Positions 35,379-55,509 of a stretch of DNA of 64,000 bases are shown piece by piece (the stretch's first letter is position 1; every line of letters starts with the position of its first letter). The notes beneath the pieces were generated by a model. The model was not told where the DNA came from and did not search any database. It worked only from the letters and a program-made list of their open reading frames with translations. The position numbers were made by a program, and so were the translations under genes. Location of the stretch: the NCBI RefSeq assembly GCF_036880985.1, contig NZ_JBAJNO010000009.1, positions 62,001 to 126,000 on the forward strand, in the 5' to 3' direction. The stretch comes from Limibacter armeniacum (GTDB lineage: Bacteria > Bacteroidota > Bacteroidia > Cytophagales > Flammeovirgaceae).

Positions 35379-38300
35379 TTACTGCTGTGTCAGGTCGTAT
35401 CGTAACTGGAAGCCAAATGCTGTTGTCGTACGTCTAAAAGCGGTAGACACCTTCGGCTCATTGATTGTTCTCTCAAAGTATAGCTGCAAATTAGCACGAT
35501 CATTCAAAACGTAATTAACTGTTGGTTTCAGCTGGAAATTCCAGTTACCGGCAGTAATCACATCAGGCTCATCAATGATCCGTTGGAATGTCTCCGTATC
35601 TCTGATCGTAAATGCCATTCTGAATGTGACATCATTCTTCAGGAGAACTGTACGTCCCTGTGCCCTGAATGGTAACTTCATACCCGCCTTGGTATAACCC
35701 AAGTCCACCACAAAGTCATTATTTCTCAGCTCAGACACCTGTGCATTTGATAGGTTCAATGATAACCTTCTTGCTTTTTTGTAATCAAATTTCAGAGAGA
35801 AATCATTCATAAATCTCACCGAAACCCCTAGCAATGGACCAAACTGCTCATCAATATTTACTTGGTTCATTACAAAGATCGGGATATAACTACCTTGGTC
35901 ATCCACCTGACTCGACAGGCCTGAATGTGACTCATTCTTATCCAAACCAACTGTACCTGCTCCATATGTCAATGATGAAGTATAAGAACCTACATCATAA
36001 GTTGAACGATACTGGTGCGAGATAGTCACAGACTTAAACAGATCACTAAACAACGGTAACTTTGAAAGTCCATCATATGAGATCTGCCAGTTTGGAATTG
36101 GCACATCAGGGAATGGGTTAAAGTCTATTGTATTGACATCTCTACCTGTATAGGCTGCAATAAACGCTGGAATCAGTACATCCTGACTATTGGCATTGTA
36201 TGTACCACCAGGATTAGCTACTGAAAGGCGCTGCTGGATCACATCCCTATTTCTTACAAACTCTTCAAAAACAGGCGATACATTCCCTGCATCATCTTTT
36301 GTAAAGGCAGTTCTCAGTGTAAAGTATGAAATCCCTCGACTACCTGTTCTTTGTGGCGACTGGAATATGAACTCATTGTTCTGATCATCATAACGGATAA
36401 TTTCCGTATAAGCATTCTGTCTCGTTCTTGTCGCATCCAGTGTGATTTTCAGAGATGAAACAGGTTCAACTGACGCTCTAATCTGAATATCCTCCGACCT
36501 TCTTTGCTGGAATGGCGTACGCTGATTAGGATTCTGCACCAGATAAGGTTGGATTTCATTTCTGATTCCAAAGTCCTGACTACCTAATATGAATGGCAGC
36601 CCCGGTGAGTTCCAATCCTGGTCAAAACCAAACAGTTTTGGCGTTTCGTTATATCCTGGCAAAGTCGTGGAGTTATTCTGAGAATAGGTACCATTGACAT
36701 CTTTCACCATAGTCAGCAGTTTGGATGCTCCATCGGCGATTTTACCTCCGGCTCCTCTTCCATCACCACCTTCTTCTTTCGCTTTCTCTATATCAGCATT
36801 TACACCCTCAAGTTTTGCCTCCAGTTTTTCGATCTTCTTCTGGAGTCTAGTCTTTTCTCCTTCATTTTGGAACGCTTCCTGAAGACTTTCAAGTTCTTGC
36901 TCCAATTCAGTCACATCTTCGCCTGCAGATTGTTTTTCGGTAATTTTCTCGCTTACCTCGTTCATCTTCTCTTCGAACTTCTTAGCACTTCGATCATCAC
37001 GCTTCTTCTGCTTGTCCTTCAGCTTTCTGAGTTTGTCCTCTAGCTTTTGTTTCTTAAGCACAAGTGGATGGTCTGGTGCCAACCTATTGTTCCGCCTTCT
37101 ACTTGGCCTTGCATTACTGCTGTTAGGACGAGTTCGGGTTTCTTTGTTAACCCTTTTCAGGTAGGAAGACTTATTGTAAAGCTTTTTAAAGTCTAATTTA
37201 CCATTGACATTGAACTGTTGGTTATTCTGAAGTGTATTACCGAAATCCTCCAAGCCTTTTGTTGCGGCTACCCAGCTTGTACCACCAACATACCTAACAT
37301 CAGAACTCACCCAATCAATCGCAGGGATCTTATCAAGAGGCAACTGGTATGTTCCTGTAAAGGACTGCGTAAACTGCTTCATTCTACCAAAGTCAGACAA
37401 ATTGTCCCAAATAGTATCCCTTGCAGCCTGATTCATCTCCCCAAATGGTTCATCAATAATCGCATTGGCTGTTGCTGCATAATCCAGCTTCAGACTATTT
37501 GTCAAGTCCCAACTTACATTATAGTTCCTGTTAAAGAAAAAGGTCTTCTCGAAGAACAACTGACTTGGATCAATTTCAAGGTTACTGTCTCTCAACTGCG
37601 TACGGATATACCTTCTATCCAAATCACCTCTCACCGTAACCGATGTTGGCAATGGATTAAAGTTAAAGTCCTTGATCAGTTGGAGATACTTCCCATCAAA
37701 TGCTTTTATATTCTTGAATGGCTCAAAACCATCAAACGGTAACTGGTAAGTGTATGCAGCACCAATTTTCCACTGTACATCCTCCATGGAAGCGGTATTC
37801 ATATTACGTTGGAAACGCTTTGTATATGCCCCACTAAAAGTCCAGTTTTCAATATCCCAAGGGTATAGCTTGGCCCCCTCTCTCATCTTCTTCTTACGAA
37901 GTCCAGAAATATTGATACTGAATGCATCCGAATAGTCCTGTACAATTTTTCTGTAATCAGCTCCTGCCTCTGCCGTTTCAAAAGCTGCAATAGAAACATC
38001 AAGCGGTACATCAGGGTCTTTAGGGTCAAAGTATGGATCTGAAGTACTTCTGTCGTAACTCACATACAGCGGCATGGTAACACCAATCCTATTCAGCCAT
38101 AGTTTATCTACATTGATATTGGATGCTACACCATACATCATTGTTTCATCCATACTACGACTACCGATTTTGTCTTGAATACCACCAAAACCAACAGTTG
38201 TATACCTCACATTGGCTTGAAGCGTAGCAAAGTCAGCAAGTTTTGTATCCAGATTTGCATTTACTGCCCAACCTGAGAATGTATTATAATCAGTCACTCT

Positions 38301-41300
38301 CAATTCATTGGCCCAAATACAAACATCCCTCAGGCTATTATTGCTTTCTGGGTTTCTTACCCCGATAATCGCCATCTTGACAGCACTCAAGTCAGGACGA
38401 CCTACTACACTTATATTATAGTTTCTGATTTTTTCGGTATAAGGCTCTGTCGTCGAACTTCCTGACTTATCTCTTTTTGACTTAATCAGGTAAAGCTCTT
38501 CCAAGGCAACATCAATTTCATTGTCCCTTGGCCAAATAGCCTCCGCTGTATTGGAACCCCTTGGTGTTATATCCAAAGGCACTTCTATTTCATAATAGTT
38601 TTGCGTAAAGTCCGTACCCAATCTCAAATAAGCAGTCAATTCATCATCTCTTGCATTATCACTCTCAGCATGCAATTCCATTTTGATGCGCTTATAATTG
38701 ACCAAGTTCAAAGCAAAATTCTTAAAAACTGCCTGACTGGTTCCCGGTTCCAATCCACTCACACACATCTGAATAGATTGTTCGTTTATTCGTCTTGTAA
38801 CCGTTGAAGTAGCATCGTAATCTCTTTCAAAACCTGGAGGCAATACATAAGGAATACCTTCGCCTGTATCCAGACCGTTCTCTTCAATATTGACAGATGA
38901 AACTTCAACTGATGAGTTTGGCTGAGGTTTGGTTAGGTCTTCGAGACTGCTAGCAGTATAAGGTCTCCATTGCGCTCCTACCAACTGGAAGTTTACCATT
39001 CTCAAGACAACAGGCTGTTCCCAACCTGTCAGGAACATTCTCATAAAACGGATAGACTTATAGCTCAATCCGTTTCCTCCAATTTCCTCAACATGGCTTC
39101 CCCTAATCGGGATTCTAAACTGATACCACTTCACACGTTCACCTGACTCAGGTGCTTCTGCTTCTACCTCATCAACGATATAAGGATGAGACGTATTCAA
39201 CTGACTTGGTTTCAAGTCTAGTTCATACTGGAAATACTGATTCAGGTCTGAAACGGTATTATCCTTATTCAAATCTTCGTTGTCAGGCAAGTTAGAAGAT
39301 GATGCAGGAAAAGCGCTTCCCCCACTCAGTTCAGGAGAGTTTCCATCAGGACCATTGAAGCTCTTGTAACGTTGCAGGATAGAGAAGTCATTCTCATCAG
39401 CATAACTGCCTAGGTAATAGCGGAAGTCATCACCAGACGGGTCTTCTTCTATAGATGACCTGATTGAGCCTGGCAATGCTGATAAGTAATCACTCAAGAA
39501 TGTACGTTCCCTTTCTGAGCTCAATCCGTCAAAACCCACGTCCTGAGCATCACGAGGTACCGCTGAGTTAAAGGCATTATTCAAATACTGTGTATTTGGC
39601 GTAAAGCCCCAATCTTCTGTTTGGGACATTGCATCATCATTGGTAGTCAGACCATTTTCAAAGAAATGTCTTCCATCCGGCACCAAGTCTTCTGAAATAT
39701 TACCCAAGTTAAAGAACAGCTTACCACCTGTCGTATTGTTCTTTCCTTCTACCTGACCATTTTCTCCATCTAAGAACGGGTCCAACAACCAGAACTCTAT
39801 GTATTGGACATTGATATTATCAAAGTCAACATCGTGTGTAATGGCTTTCGTAATTGCACCAAAGTTCTCCGTTGGATTAGGAAGGCTACCATCCGAATTA
39901 AGGTCTGTCCTGTAGTTATAAGGACCTCTCTCATCAGGGTAATATGCAATGTCAAATGAAATCTCATTTCCAGTAATCTGCTCACGTTGCTTTCCTTGGA
40001 ATACCTCATTGTAAGGAATCAGACGAGAGTAATGATTCTGCAATACTTCTGAAGTAATATTACTAGGTCTTTGAGATGAGCCTGATCCGCCAGAAAAATA
40101 GAATACATTATCGATATTATACCAAGCCATCTTGGCACGCTTGTAATTGTAGCTTCTTTCATCAGTCGGGTCCACGTAGTCATTTAGTATATCTACTGGG
40201 GTTGAACCTATTGCCCACTGAGTTGGTGTACGTGTATAGTCGTATGGTACCTCAGCTCCCTCAAAATCATCAATGTATGATACGCCATCGGTCCCCACCA
40301 ATTTAGGTGCACTAGGTACCAACTGGGCAAACTCACCCTTAAATACAACTGTTGAATTTTCTGTTGTGGAAATACCTGGAATGGCATCTATAGCTTTAGT
40401 CAAAAACCTTGAATCTGTACGGTAGTCCACTGATGTACCCCATAGGGTATTTCGGGTTGGCTCGCTACCTACAGCAATCCTTCTAATCAAAGGCTTTTCA
40501 TTCAGGTGCAATAAGGTTGCGGACACTTTCAGGTCTTTACTGAAGTGGTATTCCAAATCAACACCAGCCAAGTTTCTTGTTTGGAAATTGAAAAGGTCAG
40601 CTCTTTCATATTGTATCTGAATATCCTTATTAGAGTTCAACACCCCTTCATTCAGGATTTTCACACGACCAAACTGGTAATCGACTGTATAGTCAACCCC
40701 TTCCGTCAAGGAGGTTCCTCCTACCGAAACCACTACTGAATTCTCTGAAATATTGATTCCTGGCAATGTGATATCTCCTGATGAACCGGACTGAACACTA
40801 CCCTTAATAAAGTATTTGTTCTGAAGCGTATTCAGCTTTGCATCAGCCTGAGTTTTATTATAAAGGTCTGTGAAAACGTATTTCTCCACCAGTGCAGACT
40901 CACTTGGCTCAAACAAATCGTCCAGTGTCTTACCAAAAGGCTCTAAAACAGGGAAGATAATCCGCCCTTCCTGAGGATGAATTGTGATGCCTTCTACATA
41001 GTCGTATTTACTGTCTGGCTGACGCTCCTGACTTGGGTTCAACTGGTCAGCATTCATCAGTCTTACCAATGGGATATTGGCTGTATTCTGACCATCTGGC
41101 AAGTTAGGGTTATCGACACCTGAAGCATCGTCCTTATAAACTACTCTCAGGTTAAAGTTCTCTTTCTGAATCTGCGTTGCCTGAAGTTGGTAGATGTTTT
41201 TCATCATCAGGTCCCAAGTTGGCAAGTCCGTTCTGATCGTAGAAGGACTTAGCATTTTCATATAGACTACCGCATTCGCATCCAGATTCGTATAGTCCTC

Positions 41301-42767
41301 ATTCAGTTCACCAACCTTAAATGTCTGTCCGTTGTAAGTGTATTCGTAAGCTACTGCCAGAATCTCGTCATTACGCAAAGGAGCATTCAGGGTAATGTAA
41401 CCCAACAATGGATCTAGAGTATATTCTGTAGATGTCAACTCCCTAGCAGAACGAAGTACTTCGAAGTCAGTACCGTTTGTCATGCCATTAAACCCTTCCA
41501 AAGAGCTTTTAACATTATCAGGGTTTCTTGCTCCACCAAGTTGGGCGATTTCATTGTACAGGCTATTGGCATTATTACCTGCTTCTCCATTAGGAGTTCC
41601 TCCACCTATCCAACTGCTGTTGTATGGTGTAGACTCACCAAGGTCGAGGAATGCCGCTAAACTTCTGAGGTTCTGCGTATCATTATTTCGGTTGGTAACA
41701 AAAACCTTTACCCTTGTAACAACAACCCCTGAATTGATAATTGGCAAATTCTGGAGTGCTCTTTCATAGTTGTCACGGAAAAACTGCGAAAGGAAGAAGT
41801 TTCTATTGGCTTCATAATTATCAGCTTGCATCTCAAACTCTGCTGCCTGAGATCCATTTCGAATGGTCATTGTTTCTACCGAACCTCGCTGACTTGAAAA
41901 AATACCACTAACGTATAGTTTACCAAATCGCATTTTGGTATAAACACCAAACAGGTTTTGCGCTCCTGTAATCAAGGAGTTGGAAACAGGAAAACTCACA
42001 TTACCCACCTGTACATCCTGAATGATATCATGGTCATATGCTGTATAGGACAGGTTATATCTTTGCTCAAACTGAAAGGCACTTTTGGTATCAAAATTAC
42101 CTGATACCGTCAGCTTGTCTCCAATCTTACCTTCCAACGCCATCCCGATCTGCTGATCGAAATTGAAGCCCCCGTTTCTTTGCTGACGAACAGGTATTTG
42201 AGGGTTGTCTACTCTTTGCCATAAGCCTCCAAAATCCAGCAGTACACTACCACTGGTCTTGAACTCCATCGTACTTCCGCCAAACAGCCTGTCCGCTACT
42301 TTACCCAAGTAAATTGGCGGAATCAACCTGCTCCCATCCTTACCGGGAAGGGCATCTCGTCCGTCCTGCTGAATCGAAAGGCTTCTCCAGTAATCCTGTT
42401 GTTGCTTCTGAAATAGGTATTTCCTGTATTCATTATAAGGAATAAGTGTAGGCGGACGGTACTCCATATCATTCAATGTTTCATTGACATTGAAATAAGT
42501 ACCACTTGAATCCAACTCAATATTCACATTCGAATTGGGAGGAGTATTCAGCAACAAAGGAGAGTTACTCCGTGGATTAGTCAACGGGTCTCCATATCGG
42601 TCTTGCTCATAAGGCTTGAGCTTTAGGTCTCTTTTCGTTGTGTCCTGGTCAACCTTTTGCTGAGCTGGTACCTGTAACACTCCAAGAGAGGCATTAGGTT
42701 TCGCCCACACAACATCATTCCCAGCAAAAGTAGCAGCACACAGCAACATCAATACCAAATAGCGCAA
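35379..42767 (-). CDS. sprA: Type IX secretion system outer membrane translocon SprA (gliding motility)
   Basis: SprA (Sov) is the giant outer-membrane beta-barrel through which T9SS cargo leaves the periplasm, and is needed for gliding. The 2462-residue length, the signal peptide (ending near VVWA, residue 22), the early SLSIQQDGRDALPGKDGSRLIPPIYLGKVADRLFGG block, and many barrel-type strands such as GISYFTLRTAF and LQLYFERT support the call. A lysine/glutamate-rich coiled-coil of about 130 residues lies near residues 1885-2015, an unusual insert for a barrel. The start is TTG at 42767; no ATG is in frame upstream, and the alternative ATG at 42749 would remove the positive signal start. Confidence 0.95.
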   Translation of the reverse strand: MRYLVLMLLCAATFAGNDVVWAKPNASLGVLQVPAQQKVDQDTTKRDLKLKPYEQDRYGDPLTNPRSNSPLLLNTPPNSNVNIELDSSGTYFNVNETLNDMEYRPPTLIPYNEYRKYLFQKQQQDYWRSLSIQQDGRDALPGKDGSRLIPPIYLGKVADRLFGGSTMEFKTSGSVLLDFGGLWQRVDNPQIPVRQQRNGGFNFDQQIGMALEGKIGDKLTVSGNFDTKSAFQFEQRYNLSYTAYDHDIIQDVQVGNVSFPVSNSLITGAQNLFGVYTKMRFGKLYVSGIFSSQRGSVETMTIRNGSQAAEFEMQADNYEANRNFFLSQFFRDNYERALQNLPIINSGVVVTRVKVFVTNRNNDTQNLRSLAAFLDLGESTPYNSSWIGGGTPNGEAGNNANSLYNEIAQLGGARNPDNVKSSLEGFNGMTNGTDFEVLRSARELTSTEYTLDPLLGYITLNAPLRNDEILAVAYEYTYNGQTFKVGELNEDYTNLDANAVVYMKMLSPSTIRTDLPTWDLMMKNIYQLQATQIQKENFNLRVVYKDDASGVDNPNLPDGQNTANIPLVRLMNADQLNPSQERQPDSKYDYVEGITIHPQEGRIIFPVLEPFGKTLDDLFEPSESALVEKYVFTDLYNKTQADAKLNTLQNKYFIKGSVQSGSSGDITLPGINISENSVVVSVGGTSLTEGVDYTVDYQFGRVKILNEGVLNSNKDIQIQYERADLFNFQTRNLAGVDLEYHFSKDLKVSATLLHLNEKPLIRRIAVGSEPTRNTLWGTSVDYRTDSRFLTKAIDAIPGISTTENSTVVFKGEFAQLVPSAPKLVGTDGVSYIDDFEGAEVPYDYTRTPTQWAIGSTPVDILNDYVDPTDERSYNYKRAKMAWYNIDNVFYFSGGSGSSQRPSNITSEVLQNHYSRLIPYNEVFQGKQREQITGNEISFDIAYYPDERGPYNYRTDLNSDGSLPNPTENFGAITKAITHDVDFDNINVQYIEFWLLDPFLDGENGQVEGKNNTTGGKLFFNLGNISEDLVPDGRHFFENGLTTNDDAMSQTEDWGFTPNTQYLNNAFNSAVPRDAQDVGFDGLSSERERTFLSDYLSALPGSIRSSIEEDPSGDDFRYYLGSYADENDFSILQRYKSFNGPDGNSPELSGGSAFPASSSNLPDNEDLNKDNTVSDLNQYFQYELDLKPSQLNTSHPYIVDEVEAEAPESGERVKWYQFRIPIRGSHVEEIGGNGLSYKSIRFMRMFLTGWEQPVVLRMVNFQLVGAQWRPYTASSLEDLTKPQPNSSVEVSSVNIEENGLDTGEGIPYVLPPGFERDYDATSTVTRRINEQSIQMCVSGLEPGTSQAVFKNFALNLVNYKRIKMELHAESDNARDDELTAYLRLGTDFTQNYYEIEVPLDITPRGSNTAEAIWPRDNEIDVALEELYLIKSKRDKSGSSTTEPYTEKIRNYNISVVGRPDLSAVKMAIIGVRNPESNNSLRDVCIWANELRVTDYNTFSGWAVNANLDTKLADFATLQANVRYTTVGFGGIQDKIGSRSMDETMMYGVASNINVDKLWLNRIGVTMPLYVSYDRSTSDPYFDPKDPDVPLDVSIAAFETAEAGADYRKIVQDYSDAFSINISGLRKKKMREGAKLYPWDIENWTFSGAYTKRFQRNMNTASMEDVQWKIGAAYTYQLPFDGFEPFKNIKAFDGKYLQLIKDFNFNPLPTSVTVRGDLDRRYIRTQLRDSNLEIDPSQLFFEKTFFFNRNYNVSWDLTNSLKLDYAATANAIIDEPFGEMNQAARDTIWDNLSDFGRMKQFTQSFTGTYQLPLDKIPAIDWVSSDVRYVGGTSWVAATKGLEDFGNTLQNNQQFNVNGKLDFKKLYNKSSYLKRVNKETRTRPNSSNARPSRRRNNRLAPDHPLVLKKQKLEDKLRKLKDKQKKRDDRSAKKFEEKMNEVSEKITEKQSAGEDVTELEQELESLQEAFQNEGEKTRLQKKIEKLEAKLEGVNADIEKAKEEGGDGRGAGGKIADGASKLLTMVKDVNGTYSQNNSTTLPGYNETPKLFGFDQDWNSPGLPFILGSQDFGIRNEIQPYLVQNPNQRTPFQQRRSEDIQIRASVEPVSSLKITLDATRTRQNAYTEIIRYDDQNNEFIFQSPQRTGSRGISYFTLRTAFTKDDAGNVSPVFEEFVRNRDVIQQRLSVANPGGTYNANSQDVLIPAFIAAYTGRDVNTIDFNPFPDVPIPNWQISYDGLSKLPLFSDLFKSVTISHQYRSTYDVGSYTSSLTYGAGTVGLDKNESHSGLSSQVDDQGSYIPIFVMNQVNIDEQFGPLLGVSVRFMNDFSLKFDYKKARRLSLNLSNAQVSELRNNDFVVDLGYTKAGMKLPFRAQGRTVLLKNDVTFRMAFTIRDTETFQRIIDEPDVITAGNWNFQLKPTVNYVLNDRANLQLYFERTINEPKVSTAFRRTTTAFGFQLRYDLTQQ

Positions 42768-45257: not shown

Positions 45258-48200
45258 ATGTACTACTCATTTCTCCTCAAAATTTTTTCAGGTTCAATCG
45301 TTGGCTATACTACAAATGACCTCGCCTTAAGAATGCTATTTGAAAGAGTCGTTGGCATTCCCAGTGTAGTCGAGCAAACCAAAGATCAGTTTATCAAGAA
45401 CATCAGTAAACTAGTCGAATCCGAAATCATCCGACATGACAATATTAAAGTAGAGCTTCAGAAACCTGCATTCAAGAATGCATTGGTCAAGATGTTTGAA
45501 GAGCTGATTCAACATAGCATTAGCGAACAGCTACCTGACGGAATGCTACTGAAAGATATTCCGGGCATTGAAGCCTCGTTCAACAACTTGCTCGGCACAC
45601 TCTCAGATACAATTGAAAAACCTCTTTTTCATATCCTGAAAGACTTCACCAAACAAAATGTAATCGGTGAAGTAATCTCTCCTGAGCAAGCAGATGCTAT
45701 GGCCCGAAAGGTCTATGAAGCCATGAAACTGACTGTACTGACTCCCGGTCTGGCTGAAGACTTTACCGAAAAACTTTGGAAAGAACTAAGCGATGAAAAA
45801 CTGAGAACACTGCTTTCTGAAAAGCTTTTGGAAAACCTTAAATCCAATGCAAGCAAGATTTTCAAAGAGTTAAGTGTGGAACTACACCGCAACCACTACC
45901 CCCTAGACAGCCTACTCAGAAAGATTCTCCATCAACTAGAAATTGAAGGCCTGATGGGAAAAGTAGCTGACAGTGTTGCTCAAAAGCGAATCACCGAAAT
46001 ATTGGGTAGTGAGCAAGCCTCTTCTACAGCAAAAGAACTCATCAGCATATTCAAAACTTTGCTTGCTGACGAAAGTGCTGACAGCCCTATCAAGACACTG
46101 ATAAGGATTGTTGTCGATGTCGTTAGTCAGGAGCAGACGACTATCTTTGAGTTACTTCCTGAGGATAGTCGCCACAACTTTGAACAATTCCTTAAAAGCA
46201 AACTCCCATACCTAATTGAGACTGTAATTTCTTGGATAAGGGATAACAAAGAAGAGATTGACGAAATCGTCAATGAAGCTTTTGAAAAAAATGCATCACT
46301 GGTAGGCAACTGGCTAATCAGCCTATTTATTGAAAGCGTCAGTGACCGTTTTAGGATTGTAGAAGAAATTGTAGCCATCACCCGAAAGCAGCAGGAAGGC
46401 ATTCACTCCAAATCCATTGCCAAAAAAGGTGCTGAAGAGATTATCAAGTTTCTGAAAAACAATAGTATCAGTAACCTTTTTGCTGGAATTGATCGAGAGA
46501 AAATTGTAGACGTCCTTTTTAAGTCACTCCAACAGGTAGCAGACGACAAGCTACTCAATACAGAAAATGAGGCATTTGAGAAATTCTTCGACCAACAAAT
46601 CGGGAGTATCTGGCCCGCTAAACGAAGGGTTAATGACTTACAGGAAGTGCTAAACTACCTCTTGGATGAAGATCTGCTCAAGGAGTTCCTTAAAAGTGAC
46701 AAGGCCATTGACCGTGCTGAAGAGATTCTGGTCAATAAGATCAATGAACTCAAAGAGATCAGTATTTCTAAAATTGTATCTCCTGAGTTACTTACTCAAA
46801 ACATTGGTAACCTAAGGTATACACTTGAGGATGCACTTATAAAAAACAGATCCAGAGGTGAAGAACTACTCAAACAAATGGTTGAAGAACGTCTCAGGTC
46901 CAATACTTGGGACTTGTATGTCAAGGATACGCAACTTGAGAAAATTGTTCCTGAGTTAGCCGACAAGATCGTTGAAACTGTACAGAGAGAGTTCAAGCAT
47001 GTAATTGAATACCCTTTACAGAACATTACTGATTTTGTTGCCCAACAAGAAAACCTTCCTTACAAACTCACTGAAGAGTTAGCTGGGTTTACTGACCGTA
47101 ACCTGAATAAGCTGATGGAAGGACAGGTAAGCTCATTGGTTAAGGAAAACCTAGAAAAGAAACATAAAGACCTGCCTACCATGGTAAAGGGGTTTATGGG
47201 TAAAAACATGAAACCCATCACCTACTTTGGTGCTTTTCTGGGAGCAATCGCAGGTGGGCTTACAGCACTGCTTCCTGAAGGAGACATGACCACCAACACC
47301 ATGATAGCAGGAGCTGTGGTTTATGGAATCACTGGGTTGGGCACTAACTGGATTGCGATCAAGATGGTGTTCAGACCCTACCGAGAAAAAATGCTATTCG
47401 GTATCAGAATTCCTTTTACACCTGGTATCATGACCAAAAACAAGGAAAATTTTGCTGAACAGATGGGCAAATTTGTAGGCAAAGAACTCCTCAATCAACA
47501 GACTGTAGGTGAAGGAATGCACAAAAAGCTGCAAGCCATCAGACCTGTCATTGCCGAACGAGCCTCCAAGCATAACTTTGCACTGATCAATAGGATTGTA
47601 CTCAGTGACCGTAATACCATCACAAAAGCAATGTCCAAGCAGGTTGTACAGCAGTTTTACAAAAAAAGAGACTTACTATCCAGACAGGTCTTCAATTTTA
47701 TCGAAAACAAGGAAAAACAGCTGATTGGGGAGCAGTTTTCGGACTTGCAAGACTCATTTGCCAAACTAACTGAGCACCCAAACTTTTACAGAGGCTTGTC
47801 TTCTTTTGTTACAGAAAGAATCCAACAGCTCTTACATCAGGATGCACTTCTTAGAGACCTTATTCCTCCTCAACTGCTGGAATATATTTTCACTGGTATA
47901 GACAGTGTACTTGAAAAGCAATTAGACAAGGCTTATCAATGGGTGGAAGATGAAAAGTCTATTGAGAAAATAAATAAAGTCCTCCTTGAAAAAATGGAAG
48001 GATACAGGGAATACACCCTTTATGACATCCCTTTATTCAGAGACAGAAAAACACAGATTAAAGAAAAGTTATGGAACTTATCACAGGATAAACTTCAACA
48101 TGGAGAGCTCAAGGACATGATGTTTGAGTTCATTGACAAACAACTACTGAAGTTTATACACCCTGAACAGAAACTGTCAGAGACTTTTGACGGAAAAGCA

Positions 48201-49385
48201 TTTAAAGTACTTGAGAATAACATTGGCTTGCTGGTCAGTCATATCATCACCTCATTCTGTCAGCATTTAAGTCAAAATAAGGAGCAGTATGCTGATCAGG
48301 TATACCAAACGGCGCTAAAAAGGAATAAACTGGTTTTCCTTTACGAAGGAACAATTCGAAATGCCACCACTGACCTGCTTCAAAACAGTGTTCCCTTGTT
48401 CTTTGAACAGAAGGCTCCTGAGCTGCATCCTCTCCTTGCCTCTACCTTAAAAGAGATTGGGGATACCACCACTGTAGGGGAAATAGGCTTTGACCTTAAC
48501 AAAGACAAGCTGAAGCAAACTGTTGAGGAAATCCTATCCAATAAGCGTATTCTACTTTCACTTCAAAAAGTCTTGTACAATGTAGTAGATGAGCTATTCA
48601 GAATCCCTGTTAAGCGGTTGTTGGATTTAGGAAATCTGAACGAGAAAAAGGTTTATAGCCACTTGGCAACGACATTAGAACCTGAAGCCAAAGTCATTAG
48701 AGAGCACCTATACGAGCAGCTTTACACCCAACACAAAAATAAAGTAGTGCTGTCTGAAATTTCTGTATTGGTCAAAGGTATTGTAAGCGACTTGCTACTT
48801 GACAAGAAATGGGGTAGCCTGACTGAAGGCATGACTGAAAAAGAGATGAAACAATCCATCAGGTTTACGGTTGATGCCCTGCTCCGGACGAATGCTTTCA
48901 AGCAAAGTAAAGCCACAATAGTGAAAAGCCTCCTTAAAACTGCAGAGTCAAAAGGAATTGATGCACTCGTAGACAGGCAGCTTTTGGAGCGAGACATTCA
49001 GAATGGCATCAGGTTTATGCTGGCTGACAAGAACAATATCACTACGCTCAAACGTGAAATCAGAACCATCTGTAATTATATTCTCGATGGCTTGAACAAC
49101 AATCTCACACCCGAACTAAAAGGTTATGTACTTGACAAGCTGCTAAATGCGACCATGGCAGCTTCTGAGCAGCATATCAGTACCATTGTCAACAGTATTA
49201 ACTTCAGGGAAATTGTCGTGAATGAGATCAGCCTGATGGATTCCAAGAAAATTGAAGACCTTTTCTATGGGTTTGCTGATGTTTATTTCAACAGGCTTAT
49301 CATCTATGGTTTTATTCTCGGTTGGCCTTTAGGATTGGTGATTGATGTTGGACTAACGATGTTCATACAACGAATCACATCTTGA
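45258..49385 (+). CDS. Giant duplicated DUF445-family membrane protein
   Basis: A 1375-residue protein; ordinary DUF445 (YheB-like) members have about 200-450. The N-terminal helix runs into GYTTNDLALRMLFERVVG; the middle (about 655-720) has a helix pair, then GLGTNWIAIKMVFRPYREKM. The shared GxxTNxxAxxMxF pattern indicates an internal duplication of the DUF445 core, each copy followed by hundreds of residues of helical, charged sequence. A last membrane helix lies near 1345-1370 (LIIYGFILGWPLGLVIDVGL). The protein is probably in the inner membrane with large soluble helical regions. DUF445 has no established function. ATG at 45258. Confidence 0.85.
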   Translation: MYYSFLLKIFSGSIVGYTTNDLALRMLFERVVGIPSVVEQTKDQFIKNISKLVESEIIRHDNIKVELQKPAFKNALVKMFEELIQHSISEQLPDGMLLKDIPGIEASFNNLLGTLSDTIEKPLFHILKDFTKQNVIGEVISPEQADAMARKVYEAMKLTVLTPGLAEDFTEKLWKELSDEKLRTLLSEKLLENLKSNASKIFKELSVELHRNHYPLDSLLRKILHQLEIEGLMGKVADSVAQKRITEILGSEQASSTAKELISIFKTLLADESADSPIKTLIRIVVDVVSQEQTTIFELLPEDSRHNFEQFLKSKLPYLIETVISWIRDNKEEIDEIVNEAFEKNASLVGNWLISLFIESVSDRFRIVEEIVAITRKQQEGIHSKSIAKKGAEEIIKFLKNNSISNLFAGIDREKIVDVLFKSLQQVADDKLLNTENEAFEKFFDQQIGSIWPAKRRVNDLQEVLNYLLDEDLLKEFLKSDKAIDRAEEILVNKINELKEISISKIVSPELLTQNIGNLRYTLEDALIKNRSRGEELLKQMVEERLRSNTWDLYVKDTQLEKIVPELADKIVETVQREFKHVIEYPLQNITDFVAQQENLPYKLTEELAGFTDRNLNKLMEGQVSSLVKENLEKKHKDLPTMVKGFMGKNMKPITYFGAFLGAIAGGLTALLPEGDMTTNTMIAGAVVYGITGLGTNWIAIKMVFRPYREKMLFGIRIPFTPGIMTKNKENFAEQMGKFVGKELLNQQTVGEGMHKKLQAIRPVIAERASKHNFALINRIVLSDRNTITKAMSKQVVQQFYKKRDLLSRQVFNFIENKEKQLIGEQFSDLQDSFAKLTEHPNFYRGLSSFVTERIQQLLHQDALLRDLIPPQLLEYIFTGIDSVLEKQLDKAYQWVEDEKSIEKINKVLLEKMEGYREYTLYDIPLFRDRKTQIKEKLWNLSQDKLQHGELKDMMFEFIDKQLLKFIHPEQKLSETFDGKAFKVLENNIGLLVSHIITSFCQHLSQNKEQYADQVYQTALKRNKLVFLYEGTIRNATTDLLQNSVPLFFEQKAPELHPLLASTLKEIGDTTTVGEIGFDLNKDKLKQTVEEILSNKRILLSLQKVLYNVVDELFRIPVKRLLDLGNLNEKKVYSHLATTLEPEAKVIREHLYEQLYTQHKNKVVLSEISVLVKGIVSDLLLDKKWGSLTEGMTEKEMKQSIRFTVDALLRTNAFKQSKATIVKSLLKTAESKGIDALVDRQLLERDIQNGIRFMLADKNNITTLKREIRTICNYILDGLNNNLTPELKGYVLDKLLNATMAASEQHISTIVNSINFREIVVNEISLMDSKKIEDLFYGFADVYFNRLIIYGFILGWPLGLVIDVGLTMFIQRITS

Positions 49386-52143: not shown

Positions 52144-52755
52144 TTATTCCTGCAAGACCTTATCCATATCATGCAATGTTGTATAGAGACCATGTGCTAC
52201 GATAGGCTGTGCTATCCAAGGAGGTAACCCGTAAGCGTGTGAGGCTACAGTATAAGTAAGCACTGAACTTTGCTCATCAAGGCTTTTAGCCGCCCAACTG
52301 GCATCCATATGTACAATACGGGCTTTGTTCTTTTCTTCTGGGATATGGTTAGGAACTGCATCCATTTTTATAAATGCACTATCCGGAGATTGATAAAACA
52401 CCCTATTGTAAGAAACCAAGTCTTTATTGTCAAAAGGCCATGGAATTTCTATTTCTGTGTAAGTATACCAACTGCTATCAGCTTCCTGATCGATAGTCTT
52501 GAACGCTACAGCTCTATTGATCCATTTTGTACCCAACTCATCGTTCTGAATCAGGTCAACAATCTCTTTTACAGAGACTTTAGTTACCATCTCAGCCTTA
52601 TACTCCCGATGCCCGTCACTTTTAACTCTATACCAGACTTTTATCTCTCCTTTCTCCTTGATTAATTGCCAATCTTTGACATTATTTTGACTGATTTTTG
52701 GGAAGAATATGAACCAAGCAGCCAACATTACGTAATAAATATTGTAAATATTCAT
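52144..52755 (-). CDS. START-domain lipid-binding protein, exported
   Basis: 203 residues with an N-terminal hydrophobic stretch (about residues 6-20), which is a signal peptide or anchor, and a START/SRPBCC-like domain: WQLIKEKGEIKVWYRVKSDG, VSVKEIVDLIQNDELGTKWINRAV, EIEIPWPFDNKDLVSYNR and a C-terminal helix HGLYTTLHDMDKVL. START-domain proteins hold a lipid or other hydrophobic ligand in a deep cavity; the ligand is unknown here. It precedes miaA on the same strand. Confidence 0.82.
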   Translation of the reverse strand: MNIYNIYYVMLAAWFIFFPKISQNNVKDWQLIKEKGEIKVWYRVKSDGHREYKAEMVTKVSVKEIVDLIQNDELGTKWINRAVAFKTIDQEADSSWYTYTEIEIPWPFDNKDLVSYNRVFYQSPDSAFIKMDAVPNHIPEEKNKARIVHMDASWAAKSLDEQSSVLTYTVASHAYGLPPWIAQPIVAHGLYTTLHDMDKVLQE

Positions 52756-53118
52756 TTTTGATTAATTTACACTTCATTCAAATCAAACCTAACTTTCCAC
52801 CCACACACAAAACATTATTTCCAATAAACAGTCATTCGTAAAATATTTAGACGAATATGACTTGTTTTTTAGCGTTAAATAAAATTTTATTTTAAAAACG
52901 TAAGTATTACACCTTTAAAAGATATTGCGTAACTTACAATTACCAATATTCTTATCTGTCAAATTGTAAAAATGGAAAATTTTCCTTTTCAGGGCATTGT
53001 GACCTGAATTTAATTAATAGGATTTTTTCTCTATTTTGCGAAAGATTTGGGAGAGTCCCAGCACAAGAAATGACGATTTTATTCACCAATTATATCTCAT
53101 AAAGTGGAAGTAAAAGAC
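52756..53118. other. Divergent intergenic region upstream of the fused E1 gene
   Basis: It holds the control regions of the leftward START gene and the rightward E1 gene. It is AT-rich. One exact inverted repeat, ATTCGT (52834-52839) / ACGAAT (52851-52856), could be an operator. No ORF or RNA gene is seen. Confidence 0.4.
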
Positions 53119-55509
53119 ATGATATATACGCCAACTTTCGTAAAGGAAGAGGTTCTCAATGATCTGCGTATTGCTTTGGAGAGCCGCCACGCAAGCTACA
53201 TGGGTAGAAAGGAAGTGTTCATGGGAAAAGCCAAGTTTGGCATTTTCGGTGACGGTAAAGAAGTAGCTCAAATTGCAATGGCAAAAGCCTTTAAGAACGG
53301 TGATTTCAGGTCAGGCTACTACAGGGATCAGACTTTCATGTTTGCCATTGGTGAGCTTACACTTGAAGCGTTCTTCGCTCAACTGTATGCCCATACTGAT
53401 GTAGAAGCAGATCCTTCGAGTGCTGGACGTTGTATGAACTCTCACTTCTCTACGCGAAGTCTCAACGAGGATGGTTCTTGGAAAAACCTGATGGAGCAGA
53501 AAAACTCCAGCTCAGACATCTCTCCTACTGCTGGACAGATGCCAAGACTGGTAGGTTTGGCTTATGCTTCAAAACTATATAGAGAAAATAAAGATCTGCA
53601 CCAATTTACGCAGTTCTCAAATAAAGGTAATGAAATTGCATTCGGTACGATTGGTAACGCATCTTCTGCTGAAGGACTTTTCTTTGAGTCTATCAATGCA
53701 GCAGGTGTACTGAAAGTTCCTATGCTAATGTCAGTTTGGGATGATGGCTACGGTATTTCTGTACCAAACAGCTACCAAATGACTAAAGACAATGTCTCTG
53801 AGGTATTGAAAGGTTTCCAAAGAGAAGAAGGTAGCAATGGTTACGAGATTATCCGTGCTAGAGGTTGGAACTACACAGAGCTGATTCAGGCATATCTTAC
53901 TGCTGAGAAAGTATGTCGTGACGAACATGTACCAGTACTGTTGCACGTACAGGAAGTAACACAACCTCAAGGTCACTCTACTTCTGGATCTCACGAGCGC
54001 TACAAGACAAAAGAGCGTTTGGAATGGGAAGCAGCACACGATTGTGTACTTCAGTTTAAGAAGTGGGTGATTGAAGAAGGCTTCGCTACTGAAGAAGAGA
54101 TTGAAAGCATCGAAAAAGCGGCCATTGATCGTGTGAAACAAGCTCGTAAGAATGCTTGGGATGCATTTGTAAAATCAATGAAAGCTGAGCATAACGAAGC
54201 ACTTGACCTGCTCAAGAGAGTTGCCAAGTCTATGCCTGAGAAAGCGGTATTGGTGTCATTGGCGAATGAGTTGGAAAAAACACTCAACCCAATCAGAATG
54301 GATGCTGTAAAGGCTGTTCGTAAGGCTTTGAGAGAGCTTCGTTTTGACAATGCGCCTATCAAATCAGAATTACAGAACTGGTTGACTAAGTCCCTTGAAG
54401 AAAACAAGGAACGTTTTAGCTCTTACCTTTACAGTGAGTCTGAGGAGTCTGCCATGAATATTGAGGCAATCACTCCTGAATATGATGACAACAGCCCAAT
54501 GGTAGATGGCCGTGAGGTAATGCAGGCTTGTTTTGATGACATCCTGAGCCGTGACCCACGTGTTTTTGCTATCGGTGAGGATGTTGGTAGAATCGGTGAC
54601 GTAAACCAAGGATTTGCTGGACTTCAGGAAAAACATGGTGAGCTGAGAGTGACTGATACAGGTATCCGTGAAGCAACCATCATCGGACAAGGTATCGGTG
54701 CTGCACTGAGAGGCTTGAGACCTATCACAGAAATCCAGTACCTTGACTATATATACTACGCTGTACAGACATTGGCTGATGACTTGGCTTGTCTACAATA
54801 CAGAACTAAAGGCGGTCAGAAAGCTCCTTTGATTATCCGTACAAGAGGACACAGACTGGAAGGTGTATGGCACTCCGGTTCACCGATCGGTATGTTGCTA
54901 AACAGCTTGAGAGGTATTTATGTATTGGTGCCAAGAAACATGACTAAAGCAGCAGGTTTCTACAACACCATGCTTAAATCTGACGATCCGGCTCTGATCA
55001 TTGAATGTCTGAATGGATACAGACTGAAGGAAAAAATGCCTAAGAATATCGGAGAGATCACAACTCCTCTTGGACAGCCTGAAGTAATCCGTGAAGGATC
55101 AGATATTACAGTAGTTACTTATGGTTCAATGTGTAGAATCGTGATGGATGCAGCTGAGCAACTATCTAAAGTAGGCATCAACATTGAAGTAATTGACGTT
55201 CAGTCACTGATTCCTTTTGACATTGACCACAGCATTGTTGAGTCAATCAAGAAAACTAATCGTGTCATCTTTGCTGATGAGGACGTACCAGGTGGTGCTA
55301 CTGCCTTCATGATGCAGAAAGTGGTGGATGAGCAGGATGCATACCGTTGGTTAGACTCAAAACCAGTATGTATTGCGGCTAAAGAACACCGTCCTGCATA
55401 TGCTTCAGATGGAGATTACTTCTCTAAGCCAAATGCTGAGGACATCTTCGATGCAGCTTATGAACTGATGAGCGAGTCAGACCCTAAGACTTTCCCAGCA
55501 CTTTACTAA
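53119..55509 (+). CDS. 2-oxoacid dehydrogenase E1 component, alpha and beta fused
   Basis: Thiamine diphosphate enzyme that decarboxylates a 2-oxoacid, of the branched-chain or pyruvate type, and passes the acyl group to E2. Residues 1 to about 440 match E1 alpha, including a TPP-binding region that reads GTIGNASSAEGLFFESINAA...WDDGYGISVP (GDG and NN of the classical motif are replaced). From about 450 the E1 beta half runs through VFAIGEDVGRIGDVNQGFAG, TEIQYLDYIYYAVQTLADDL and FADEDVPGGATAFMMQ. The fused form is common in Bacteroidota. I chose the ATG at 53119; a GTG at 53104 would add five residues. E2 and E3 are not linked. Monocistronic with its own terminator. Confidence 0.9.
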   Translation: MIYTPTFVKEEVLNDLRIALESRHASYMGRKEVFMGKAKFGIFGDGKEVAQIAMAKAFKNGDFRSGYYRDQTFMFAIGELTLEAFFAQLYAHTDVEADPSSAGRCMNSHFSTRSLNEDGSWKNLMEQKNSSSDISPTAGQMPRLVGLAYASKLYRENKDLHQFTQFSNKGNEIAFGTIGNASSAEGLFFESINAAGVLKVPMLMSVWDDGYGISVPNSYQMTKDNVSEVLKGFQREEGSNGYEIIRARGWNYTELIQAYLTAEKVCRDEHVPVLLHVQEVTQPQGHSTSGSHERYKTKERLEWEAAHDCVLQFKKWVIEEGFATEEEIESIEKAAIDRVKQARKNAWDAFVKSMKAEHNEALDLLKRVAKSMPEKAVLVSLANELEKTLNPIRMDAVKAVRKALRELRFDNAPIKSELQNWLTKSLEENKERFSSYLYSESEESAMNIEAITPEYDDNSPMVDGREVMQACFDDILSRDPRVFAIGEDVGRIGDVNQGFAGLQEKHGELRVTDTGIREATIIGQGIGAALRGLRPITEIQYLDYIYYAVQTLADDLACLQYRTKGGQKAPLIIRTRGHRLEGVWHSGSPIGMLLNSLRGIYVLVPRNMTKAAGFYNTMLKSDDPALIIECLNGYRLKEKMPKNIGEITTPLGQPEVIREGSDITVVTYGSMCRIVMDAAEQLSKVGINIEVIDVQSLIPFDIDHSIVESIKKTNRVIFADEDVPGGATAFMMQKVVDEQDAYRWLDSKPVCIAAKEHRPAYASDGDYFSKPNAEDIFDAAYELMSESDPKTFPALY

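Follow-up and report, generated by a model that had tools for sequence, protein, structure and literature searches.

What does a bacterium use a DUF445 protein of 1375 residues for? The question is raised by an open reading frame in Limibacter armeniacum, found in a window of 64,000 nucleotides (the whole stretch of DNA analysed here). The frame occupies positions 45258-49385 of the forward strand, starts with ATG and encodes 1375 amino acids followed by a stop. The Pfam search matched the protein to DUF445 (PF04286) in three stretches with an E-value of 1.7e-39 and 137.2 bits, well above the curated cut-off of 33.8, in agreement with the family assigned by a first-pass annotation of this DNA. 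Nothing besides DUF445 reached a meaningful score, and ATPase, motor and signalling domains are absent from the matches. The same annotation had called the protein far longer than usual, which is borne out: the Pfam model has 368 positions and the related forms about 200 and about 400 amino acids, 200-400 amino acids being the usual size among the proteins compared here rather than a formal criterion. Instead of one such domain, the long form carries two complete domains per chain, with helical rods of about 588 residues each between membrane segments that are referred to here as caps. Its features, all on the forward strand, are the following.

45258..49385, forward strand: long tandem DUF445 protein, a lone gene (open reading frame; PF04286 match; no conserved neighbour seen)
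45258..45449, forward strand: N-cap 1, residues 1-64, comprising the first membrane segment, which contains GYTTNDLALRMLF, and a conserved stretch behind it (invariant residues; cap consensus)
45450..47105, forward strand: rod 1, residues 65-616, helical, predicted hairpin (AF2; VIA-align pairing about residue ~343; length)
46233..46352, forward strand: 40-residue conservation maximum of rod 1 (326-365), close to the rod midpoint and predicted to be the tip, in part with low confidence (conservation; AF2)
47106..47279, forward strand: C-cap 1, residues 617-674, second membrane segment, with glycine-rich GAFLGAIAGG (aligns with mini and single DUF445 C-caps)
47280..47507, forward strand: N-cap 2, residues 675-750, third membrane segment with GLGTNWIAIKMVF, FRPY and PFTPG (cap alignment; invariant residues)
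47508..49187, forward strand: rod 2, residues 751-1310, helical, putative hairpin by analogy with rod 1 (AF2; homology to rod 1; length)
48276..48395, forward strand: 40-residue conservation maximum of rod 2 (1007-1046), close to the rod midpoint and possibly the tip (conservation)
49188..49382, forward strand: C-cap 2, residues 1311-1375, fourth membrane segment, with YGFxxGxxxGLxxD (cap alignment)

The two halves of the single protein are not significantly similar by BLASTP (E 0.20 and 0.32), so an alignment of relatives was needed. Compared as profiles with hhalign, the halves align end to end over 593 columns with an E-value of 1.1e-23, against at least 0.079 in all 20 of 20 column shuffles and 1.8e-6 with the C half reversed. 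The two DUF445 copies proposed in the first-pass annotation are therefore a real duplication and align far better than chance, although self-alignment reveals it at the profile level and not by BLASTP, and what was duplicated is the whole domain with both of its ends, not a core motif alone. Since both DUF445 membrane ends are present in each half, the tandem is full: the protein is two complete DUF445 domains, head to tail. Reversed-sequence controls revealed that helical composition alone can produce E-values as low as 1.8e-6 when the halves are compared with each other and 3.5e-7 when a half is compared with itself, and weaker matches were consequently not taken as homology by E-value alone. 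The weakest same-side match beats the best cross-side match in 48 of 48 half-queries (24 rows); a single tandem event accounts for the 24 rows tested.

The pattern GxxTNxxAxxMxF, a DUF445 feature, lies in the N-terminal membrane segment of each half, as GYTTNDLALRMLF at residues 16-28 and GLGTNWIAIKMVF at residues 693-705. Its T, N, A, M and F are invariant across 24 long forms; in N-cap 1, G12, G16, T19, N20, A23, M26, L27 and F28 are invariant in 24 rows. The motif had been described as following a membrane segment, but the first copy sits inside the first one. It is also present in mini and single DUF445 proteins. The polar TN pairs lie within conserved membrane segments. Hydrophobic windows over 1.3 were found at residues 653-673, 683-701, 1162-1182 and 1344-1371; the third falls within rod 2 and has no hydrophobic counterpart in relatives on visual inspection, and the first membrane segment (2-28) stays below the threshold and is a helix in the AF2 model. 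The C-terminal segment of each domain is preceded by another DUF445 feature, an IVxxxVxxxxxxxLExL-like stretch (residues 617-672 and 1311-1368). Both caps align with those of 10 mini and 25 single DUF445 proteins. For the C-caps, profile E-values are 2.4e-7 and 1.3e-7 against minis and 7.5e-8 and 2e-5 against singles, near the level of the reversed controls; the matched positions nevertheless reach the C-cap, and the consensus lines are in agreement.

Three smaller kinds of relatives share this anatomy. The mini DUF445 proteins (about 200 amino acids, in the same genome and its relatives) possess both caps and match the long halves with profile E-values of 5.6e-13 and 1.9e-17; they differ in having a single domain and a rod of roughly 90 residues. 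Single-domain proteins such as E. coli YjiN (426 amino acids) and B. subtilis YheB, which we take to be another such member, resemble the long form in being capped at both ends and in having a charged helical rod. YjiN matches the C half with a profile E-value of 5.2e-7, near the reversed helical controls (3.5e-7 to 1.8e-6), and the N half weakly (E 0.0057), and has ADW at the position of the TN. The third relative, a short tandem of 406 amino acids in the same genome (C8:2443850-2445067; locus L006:859-2076), repeats the layout of the long form: cap, rod, cap, cap, rod, cap. Its halves are homologous to each other (E 1.3e-13, reversed control 0.07) and closest to the minis (E 5.5e-29 and 4.2e-30, versus 1e-6 to 1.3e-12 for the long halves), and it is thus read as a separate fusion. 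The occurrence of the tandem layout at both sizes suggests that the DUF445 domain may work in pairs. Searching those parts of the open literature that were accessible yielded no functional study of DUF445, UPF0754, yjiN or yheB; PMC3355149 was rejected as a DUF445 paper, its match being a prefix match to DUF4453/4454.

The long form occurs in 53 of the 241 genomes of Limibacter's order and is full-length in 48 of them, with open frames of 1359-1470. Outside the order it was detected in Orenia, Fusibacter and two Sulfurimonadaceae bins, with full-length frames of 1388-1433 in the Fusibacter and Orenia orders. It is present, then, in at least Bacteroidota and Bacillota, plus Campylobacterota bins. 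A single-sequence scan of genome contigs returned no relative, nor did two scans of viral contigs. DUF445 itself was found in 4 of 14 well-known control genomes (E. coli, B. subtilis, Synechococcus elongatus and Corynebacterium glutamicum). Of 148 order genomes, 26 carry the short tandem; a long-form match accompanies it in 25 of these, but shared ancestry confounds the co-occurrence. No conserved neighbour was seen across 13 long-form loci (listed ORFs of at least 150 amino acids compared with the window ORFs, 30-64 kb part). The sole non-DUF445 neighbour match among these was an ORF of locus L072, which resembles a gene 12 kb away, and by eye, the four non-Bacteroidota loci have neighbours in common only between the two near-identical Sulfurimonadaceae loci.

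The rods vary in sequence and hardly in length. Over 32 rows, some of them near copies, they average 589.4 (SD 8.9) and 586.3 (SD 8.5) residues. The SD amounts to about 1.5% among Bacteroidota, Bacillota and Campylobacterota rows whose sequences share 19-40% identity; the lengths of the two rods do not covary (r 0.06). Conservation is highest in the membrane ends and again around each rod's middle, and poor elsewhere. The peaks are centred on residues 346 and 1027, against rod midpoints of 338 and 1031, and 200 row bootstraps placed them at 308-357 and 1027-1031 (2.5-97.5%). The peak is less central in non-Bacteroidota rods: with eight rows, the window protein and seven non-Bacteroidota, it shifts to 312 and 968. 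No clear peak was found in the middle of minis, singles or the short tandem, except at about 325-348 in the C half of the latter.

AF2 models of the rods are mostly helix (pLDDT 74.6 for rod 1 and 75.9 for rod 2, pTM 0.33 for both), and residues 335-382 of rod 1, the presumed tip region, fall below a pLDDT of 50. In rod 1, VIA-align aligned 80 residues over 138-549 and 99 over 184-501; so few residues over so wide a range indicate that distant segments are paired, as in an antiparallel hairpin. With the rod 2 model, one row (95 residues over 12-736, rmsd 4.7) joins both ends, whereas most rows are contiguous stretches and show no hairpin; a 47-residue helix (385-431, about 1024-1070 of the window protein) runs alongside the presumed tip. 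According to these models, whose global confidence is low, the rods are probably hairpins, with better support for rod 1 than for rod 2. The best VIA-align Z-scores, 6.0 and 7.5 for the rod 1 and rod 2 models, are in the range that the tool calls common for helical repeats. Coiled coils such as SMC arms, the dynein stalk and chemoreceptor cytoplasmic domains fill these lists; no sequence relation to them was found, and any likeness may be one of working shape only. There was no clear solved relative (best E 0.0022, a chain named F4132-2 Chain A; best of the other search 0.19), and Foldseek gave no match at E <= 0.001 for either model. A recurring short bridge and helices in the models had raised the idea of a tandem of ~50-residue units, which was set aside but kept as a possibility, with no sharp spacing and nearly all units weak. 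Alternative matches at E<1e-4 in the rod self-alignments numbered 12 versus 3 reversed and 6 versus 2 reversed; the rod 1 unit profile found 5.2 units per C half at a score of at least 0, versus 2.2 reversed and 0.4 shuffled, and in relatives 0.7 per single form and 1.5 per mini.

The flanking charges bear on the side of the membrane to which the rods extend. The loop from C-cap 1 to N-cap 2 holds only 0.12 K/R per sequence, and the stretch after N-cap 2 has 7.67 K/R versus 1.71 D/E (24 rows each). Of the 25 single DUF445 forms, 24 possess one more membrane segment at the N-terminus, and the flanking charges of the single forms place the rod inside. Counter to cytoplasmic rods are the stretches after the first segment (6.04 K/R versus 5.17 D/E) and before the last one (3.96 versus 5.54; 24 rows each), as well as slightly basic C-tails (1.12 versus 0.46), that of Fusibacter ending in KRKKK. 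With these exceptions, the charge pattern indicates that the rods most likely face the cytoplasm. The opposite placement, in which periplasmic rods would connect the inner membrane with the outer membrane or with peptidoglycan, appears rather unlikely. The misfitting flanks speak for it, and most carriers found belong to Cytophagales, Halanaerobiales and Sulfurimonadaceae, which are diderm groups. It is also favored by E. coli yjiN, which PMC7774453 lists with a 5.96-fold increase in a mutant of the peptidoglycan endopeptidase gene spr. In the long form and the 25 single forms, however, the predominant charge pattern places the rod inside. Moreover, of 198 genomes in the Fusibacter order, which comprises Gram-positive Clostridia that lack an outer membrane, 6 encode the full-length form.

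It seems improbable that amphipathic rods act on lipid, either lying on the membrane surface or carrying lipid, instead of standing off as stalks. The TN pairs inside the membrane segments would agree with such a role, and human ApoB100 provides the best Foldseek rows for both models (E 2.7e-2 and 2.7e-3), but with TM-scores of 0.06-0.10 and rmsd of 38-57 A these rows carry no fold information, and the conserved rod middle and length better suit a stalk. There is a similarly small chance that the long form is just two fused DUF445 proteins with grown rods, having no more function than the ordinary ones. Poor conservation outside caps and middles would be expected then, and DUF445 at E <= 1e-5 is absent from 5 of 21 order genomes, where the family must be dispensable; the steady rod length in rows from three phyla and the narrow range of full-length frames within and outside the order argue against it.

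The best explanation, with a probability of about 0.42, is a covalent pseudo-dimer of membrane-anchored DUF445 stalks acting as a tether or scaffold. Both domains would be anchored in the inner membrane at either end, their long helical stalks, probably hairpins, projecting to one and the same side of it, most likely into the cytoplasm. The TN-bearing membrane bases would pack together and the stalks, near-equal in length, might pair; the conserved rod middles would form the hairpin tips, which could keep a partner at a constant spacing from the membrane. Counting against this explanation are the low pTM of the models, the contiguous VIA-align rows of rod 2, the shifted conservation peaks of the eight-row set, the lack of covariation in rod length, the misfitting charge flanks and the absence of a conserved neighbour. 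The membrane-bound scaffold or tether of the first-pass annotation fits the anatomy, with caps in both halves, length-conserved helical rods and no other Pfam domain; its role is conjectural. A doubled DUF445 giant kept at nearly the same size across phyla points to a cell-envelope scaffold.

A wider view of the family is possible but doubtful. DUF445 proteins would be paired membrane-anchored hairpin stalks of set arm length, and the 1375-residue form a double stalk of fixed length, with four arms of about 290-300 residues and conserved tips. Bacteria of at least the Bacteroidota and Bacillota, together with Campylobacterota bins, would possess a novel type of inner-membrane spacer or tether, often accompanied in Cytophagales by the 406-residue double stalk. 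The near-fixed rod length and the conserved rod middles lead to testable predictions on topology, hairpin and tip partner for the whole DUF445 family.

The long tandem DUF445 gene of Limibacter armeniacum lies in a genome of 8.04 Mb on nine contigs, which also encodes a short tandem and a mini protein of the family. Named relatives suggest that the genome belongs to the Bacteroidota order Cytophagales. The features concerned are the following, with positions in the window unless a contig is named.

45258-49385, + strand: long tandem DUF445 gene, 1375-residue ORF
35379-42767, - strand: SprA, 2462 aa (gliding/secretion), with a long charged internal stretch by eye
G000:C8:2443850-2445067 (locus L006:859-2076), + strand: short tandem DUF445, 406 aa, two fused mini domains
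G000:C9:215503-216057 (loci L002, L004, L066), - strand: mini DUF445, 201 aa

The long form matches Pfam DUF445 at E 1.7e-39 in three stretches, and none of the NCBIfam families reaches its own cut-off. The SprA and RuvA genes adjoin its gene, and the SprA gene itself has RuvA and DUF4837 genes as neighbours in the window; no conserved neighbour of the long form was seen in the loci compared. Further along, a 203-aa protein (52144-52755, -) is START-like by eye, without a Pfam match at 0.01, and an 801-aa ORF with a listed GTG start (53104-55509, +) resembles a fused alpha-beta 2-oxoacid dehydrogenase E1 component by eye.

The first-pass annotation had described two copies of the DUF445 core and proposed a self-alignment of the two halves as a check. 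Plain BLASTP of residues 1-672 against 673-1375 gave only E 0.20, but hhalign of the halves with their relatives aligned residues 4-663 with 681-1360 over 593 columns (probability 99.6, E 1.1e-23). Column-shuffled controls gave E 0.079 or worse in 20 of 20 runs. Because helical sequences may resemble each other without kinship, the C half was also reversed, which gave E 1.8e-6; the rods without their membrane caps matched at E 2.3e-13, against 1.1e-3 for the reversed control. By these profile comparisons the match is far above both kinds of control and bears out the duplication, which is not apparent from one protein alone and needs aligned relatives. When the 48 halves of 24 rows were compared with one another, the weakest same-side match exceeded the best cross-side match for 48 of 48. 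A single tandem event accounts for these 24 rows, with a doubling older than their spread.

The duplicated unit was compared with 10 minis (DUF445 proteins of ~200 aa) and 25 singles (one-domain forms of ~400 aa) from related genomes. Matches of the N and C halves to the minis start at the N-cap (E 5.6e-13 and 1.9e-17). Their second parts match the end of the minis (E 2.4e-7 and 1.3e-7) and also that of the singles (E 7.5e-8 and 2e-5). These values are close to the reversed-control level, but the aligned positions reach the C-cap and the consensus lines of the caps are concordant. Each half is laid out as cap-rod-cap. The first-pass observation was correct and understated. Membrane segments lie near residues 2-28, 653-672, 683-705 and 1346-1371, and an extra hydrophobic window inside rod 2 (1162-1182) is by eye absent from relatives. 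In YjiN of E. coli K-12 (L165:7967-9247, -) ADW stands in place of the TN of the GxxTNxxAxxMxF motif, so not every member of the family carries the TN pair.

Rod length is closely kept, while identity of the relatives to the window protein falls from 40 to 19%. In 32 rows, which include some near copies, rod 1 (columns 45-632) measures 589.4 residues (SD 8.9) and rod 2 (columns 732-1320) 586.3 (SD 8.5), with no covariation between their lengths (r 0.06). Relative-entropy profiles are high in the caps and low in the arms, and each rod has a single broad rise at mid-length. The peaks are centred at residues 346 and 1027, near the rod midpoints (338 and 1031), and lie at 357 and 1027 in the 20 rows left without the four non-Bacteroidota ones; 200 row bootstraps gave 308-357 and 1027-1031. 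In a set of eight rows (the window protein and seven non-Bacteroidota) they shift to 312 and 968, which makes the central position less sure outside Bacteroidota. Rods cut at the peaks give mean arms of 302, 288, 297 and 290 residues; this equality is partly a product of the cutting, and the actual finding is the central peak position.

AlphaFold2 predicted mostly helix for residues 1-715 (mean pLDDT 74.6) and 640-1375 (mean pLDDT 75.9). The overall shape is uncertain because of low model confidence, with pTM 0.33 in both and pLDDT below 50 at residues 335-382 of the first. Foldseek returned no match at E <= 0.001 for either model, and no clear solved relative was found by sequence. Several VIA-align rows of the first model spread few residues across a wide range (80 over 138-549, 99 over 184-501) and so must bring distant segments together about residue 343, as in an antiparallel hairpin. 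Most rows of the second are contiguous, without this pattern; one links both ends (95 residues over 12-736, rmsd 4.7). Next to the presumed tip of this model runs a helix of 47 residues. From the models we infer that the rods may be hairpins, with better support in rod 1 than in rod 2.

The side of the membrane can be read from flanking charges by the positive-inside rule. The loop that joins the two central segments has 0.12 K/R per sequence in 24 long forms; beyond the third segment the chain has 7.67 K/R against 1.71 D/E. An additional segment precedes the motif in 24 of the 25 singles, with K/R against D/E of 3.5 and 2.2 before it, 0.4 and 2.3 in the loop, and 6.6 and 1.3 after the motif segment. 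These patterns fit cytoplasmic rods. Counter to this stand the weak bias after the first segment of the 24 long forms (6.04 K/R against 5.17 D/E), the acidic stretch before the last one (3.96 against 5.54), and the slightly basic C-tails (1.12 against 0.46; KRKKK in Fusibacter).

A survey of phyla, already proposed in the first-pass annotation, found the long form in Cytophagales and also in Orenia, Fusibacter and Sulfurimonadaceae bins. Among 395 evenly drawn Bacteroidota genomes, few of them from relevant families, only the window's own genome carried it; it was clear among 58 relatives. In Cytophagales, matches at E <= 1e-20 occur in 53 of 241 genomes; of these, 48 have one full-length open frame (1359-1470), and in five it is fragmented or cut. 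No more than two candidates were scored in each genome, which makes copy number a lower bound; a PF04286 scan of ten carriers gave one long frame in each. An alignment-based scan of genome contigs, which relied on two peptide patterns and would overlook divergent carriers, gave 37 loci. Their carriers are Flammeovirga, Microscillaceae, Bernardetiaceae, Raineya, Thermonema, a Flexibacter-labelled bin and other Cytophagales bins, and elsewhere Orenia metallireducens, a Halanaerobiales bin, Fusibacter sp. 3D3 and two Sulfurimonadaceae bins. Further scans with the alignment gave full-length frames of 1390-1433 in 6 of 198 genomes from the order of Fusibacter and in 3 of 13 from that of Orenia; among 200 genomes of the phylum that holds Sulfurimonadaceae, the single one was the genome from which the scan had started. 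The Orenia phylum (149 genomes) gave a single full form, a gene that appears split into frames of 500 and 906 (G632:C17:6081-10186), and another three frames, of 1170-1259. Judged by name, the Orenia and Fusibacter carriers are isolates; Campylobacterota are the least certain group, because bins may include foreign contigs. In a quick tree the 18 named Bacteroidota rows, along with two unplaced ones, group on a single side (SH-aLRT 98); Orenia, Fusibacter and Sulfurimonadaceae fall outside this group, where long branches meet.

The halves of the short tandem are homologous (E 1.3e-13; reversed control 0.07) and both closest to minis, and we read it as a fusion separate from the long form. Its gene is convergent with one resembling a UbiB/ABC1-type kinase by eye. 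It occurs in 26 of 148 Cytophagales genomes at E <= 1.3e-91, of which 25 also match the long form, the exception being G395 (C1:4032183-4033367). The converse fails: in genomes G414, G423, G430 and G432 the long form is not accompanied by a short-tandem match. Shared ancestry may explain the co-occurrence. Four relatives of the same family (G397-G400) have only a mini-sized form (PF04286, E <= 1e-5).

In the portions of the literature searched, no functional study of DUF445, UPF0754, yjiN or yheB was found, the one datum found there being that an E. coli spr mutant has YjiN 5.96-fold up (PMC7774453). DUF445 is a known family, of which the long full tandem, with its conserved length, is a variant without description in those same portions. 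The most likely principle, to which we give a probability of about 0.42, is that the long form is a membrane-anchored pseudo-dimeric stalk and serves as a tether or scaffold.
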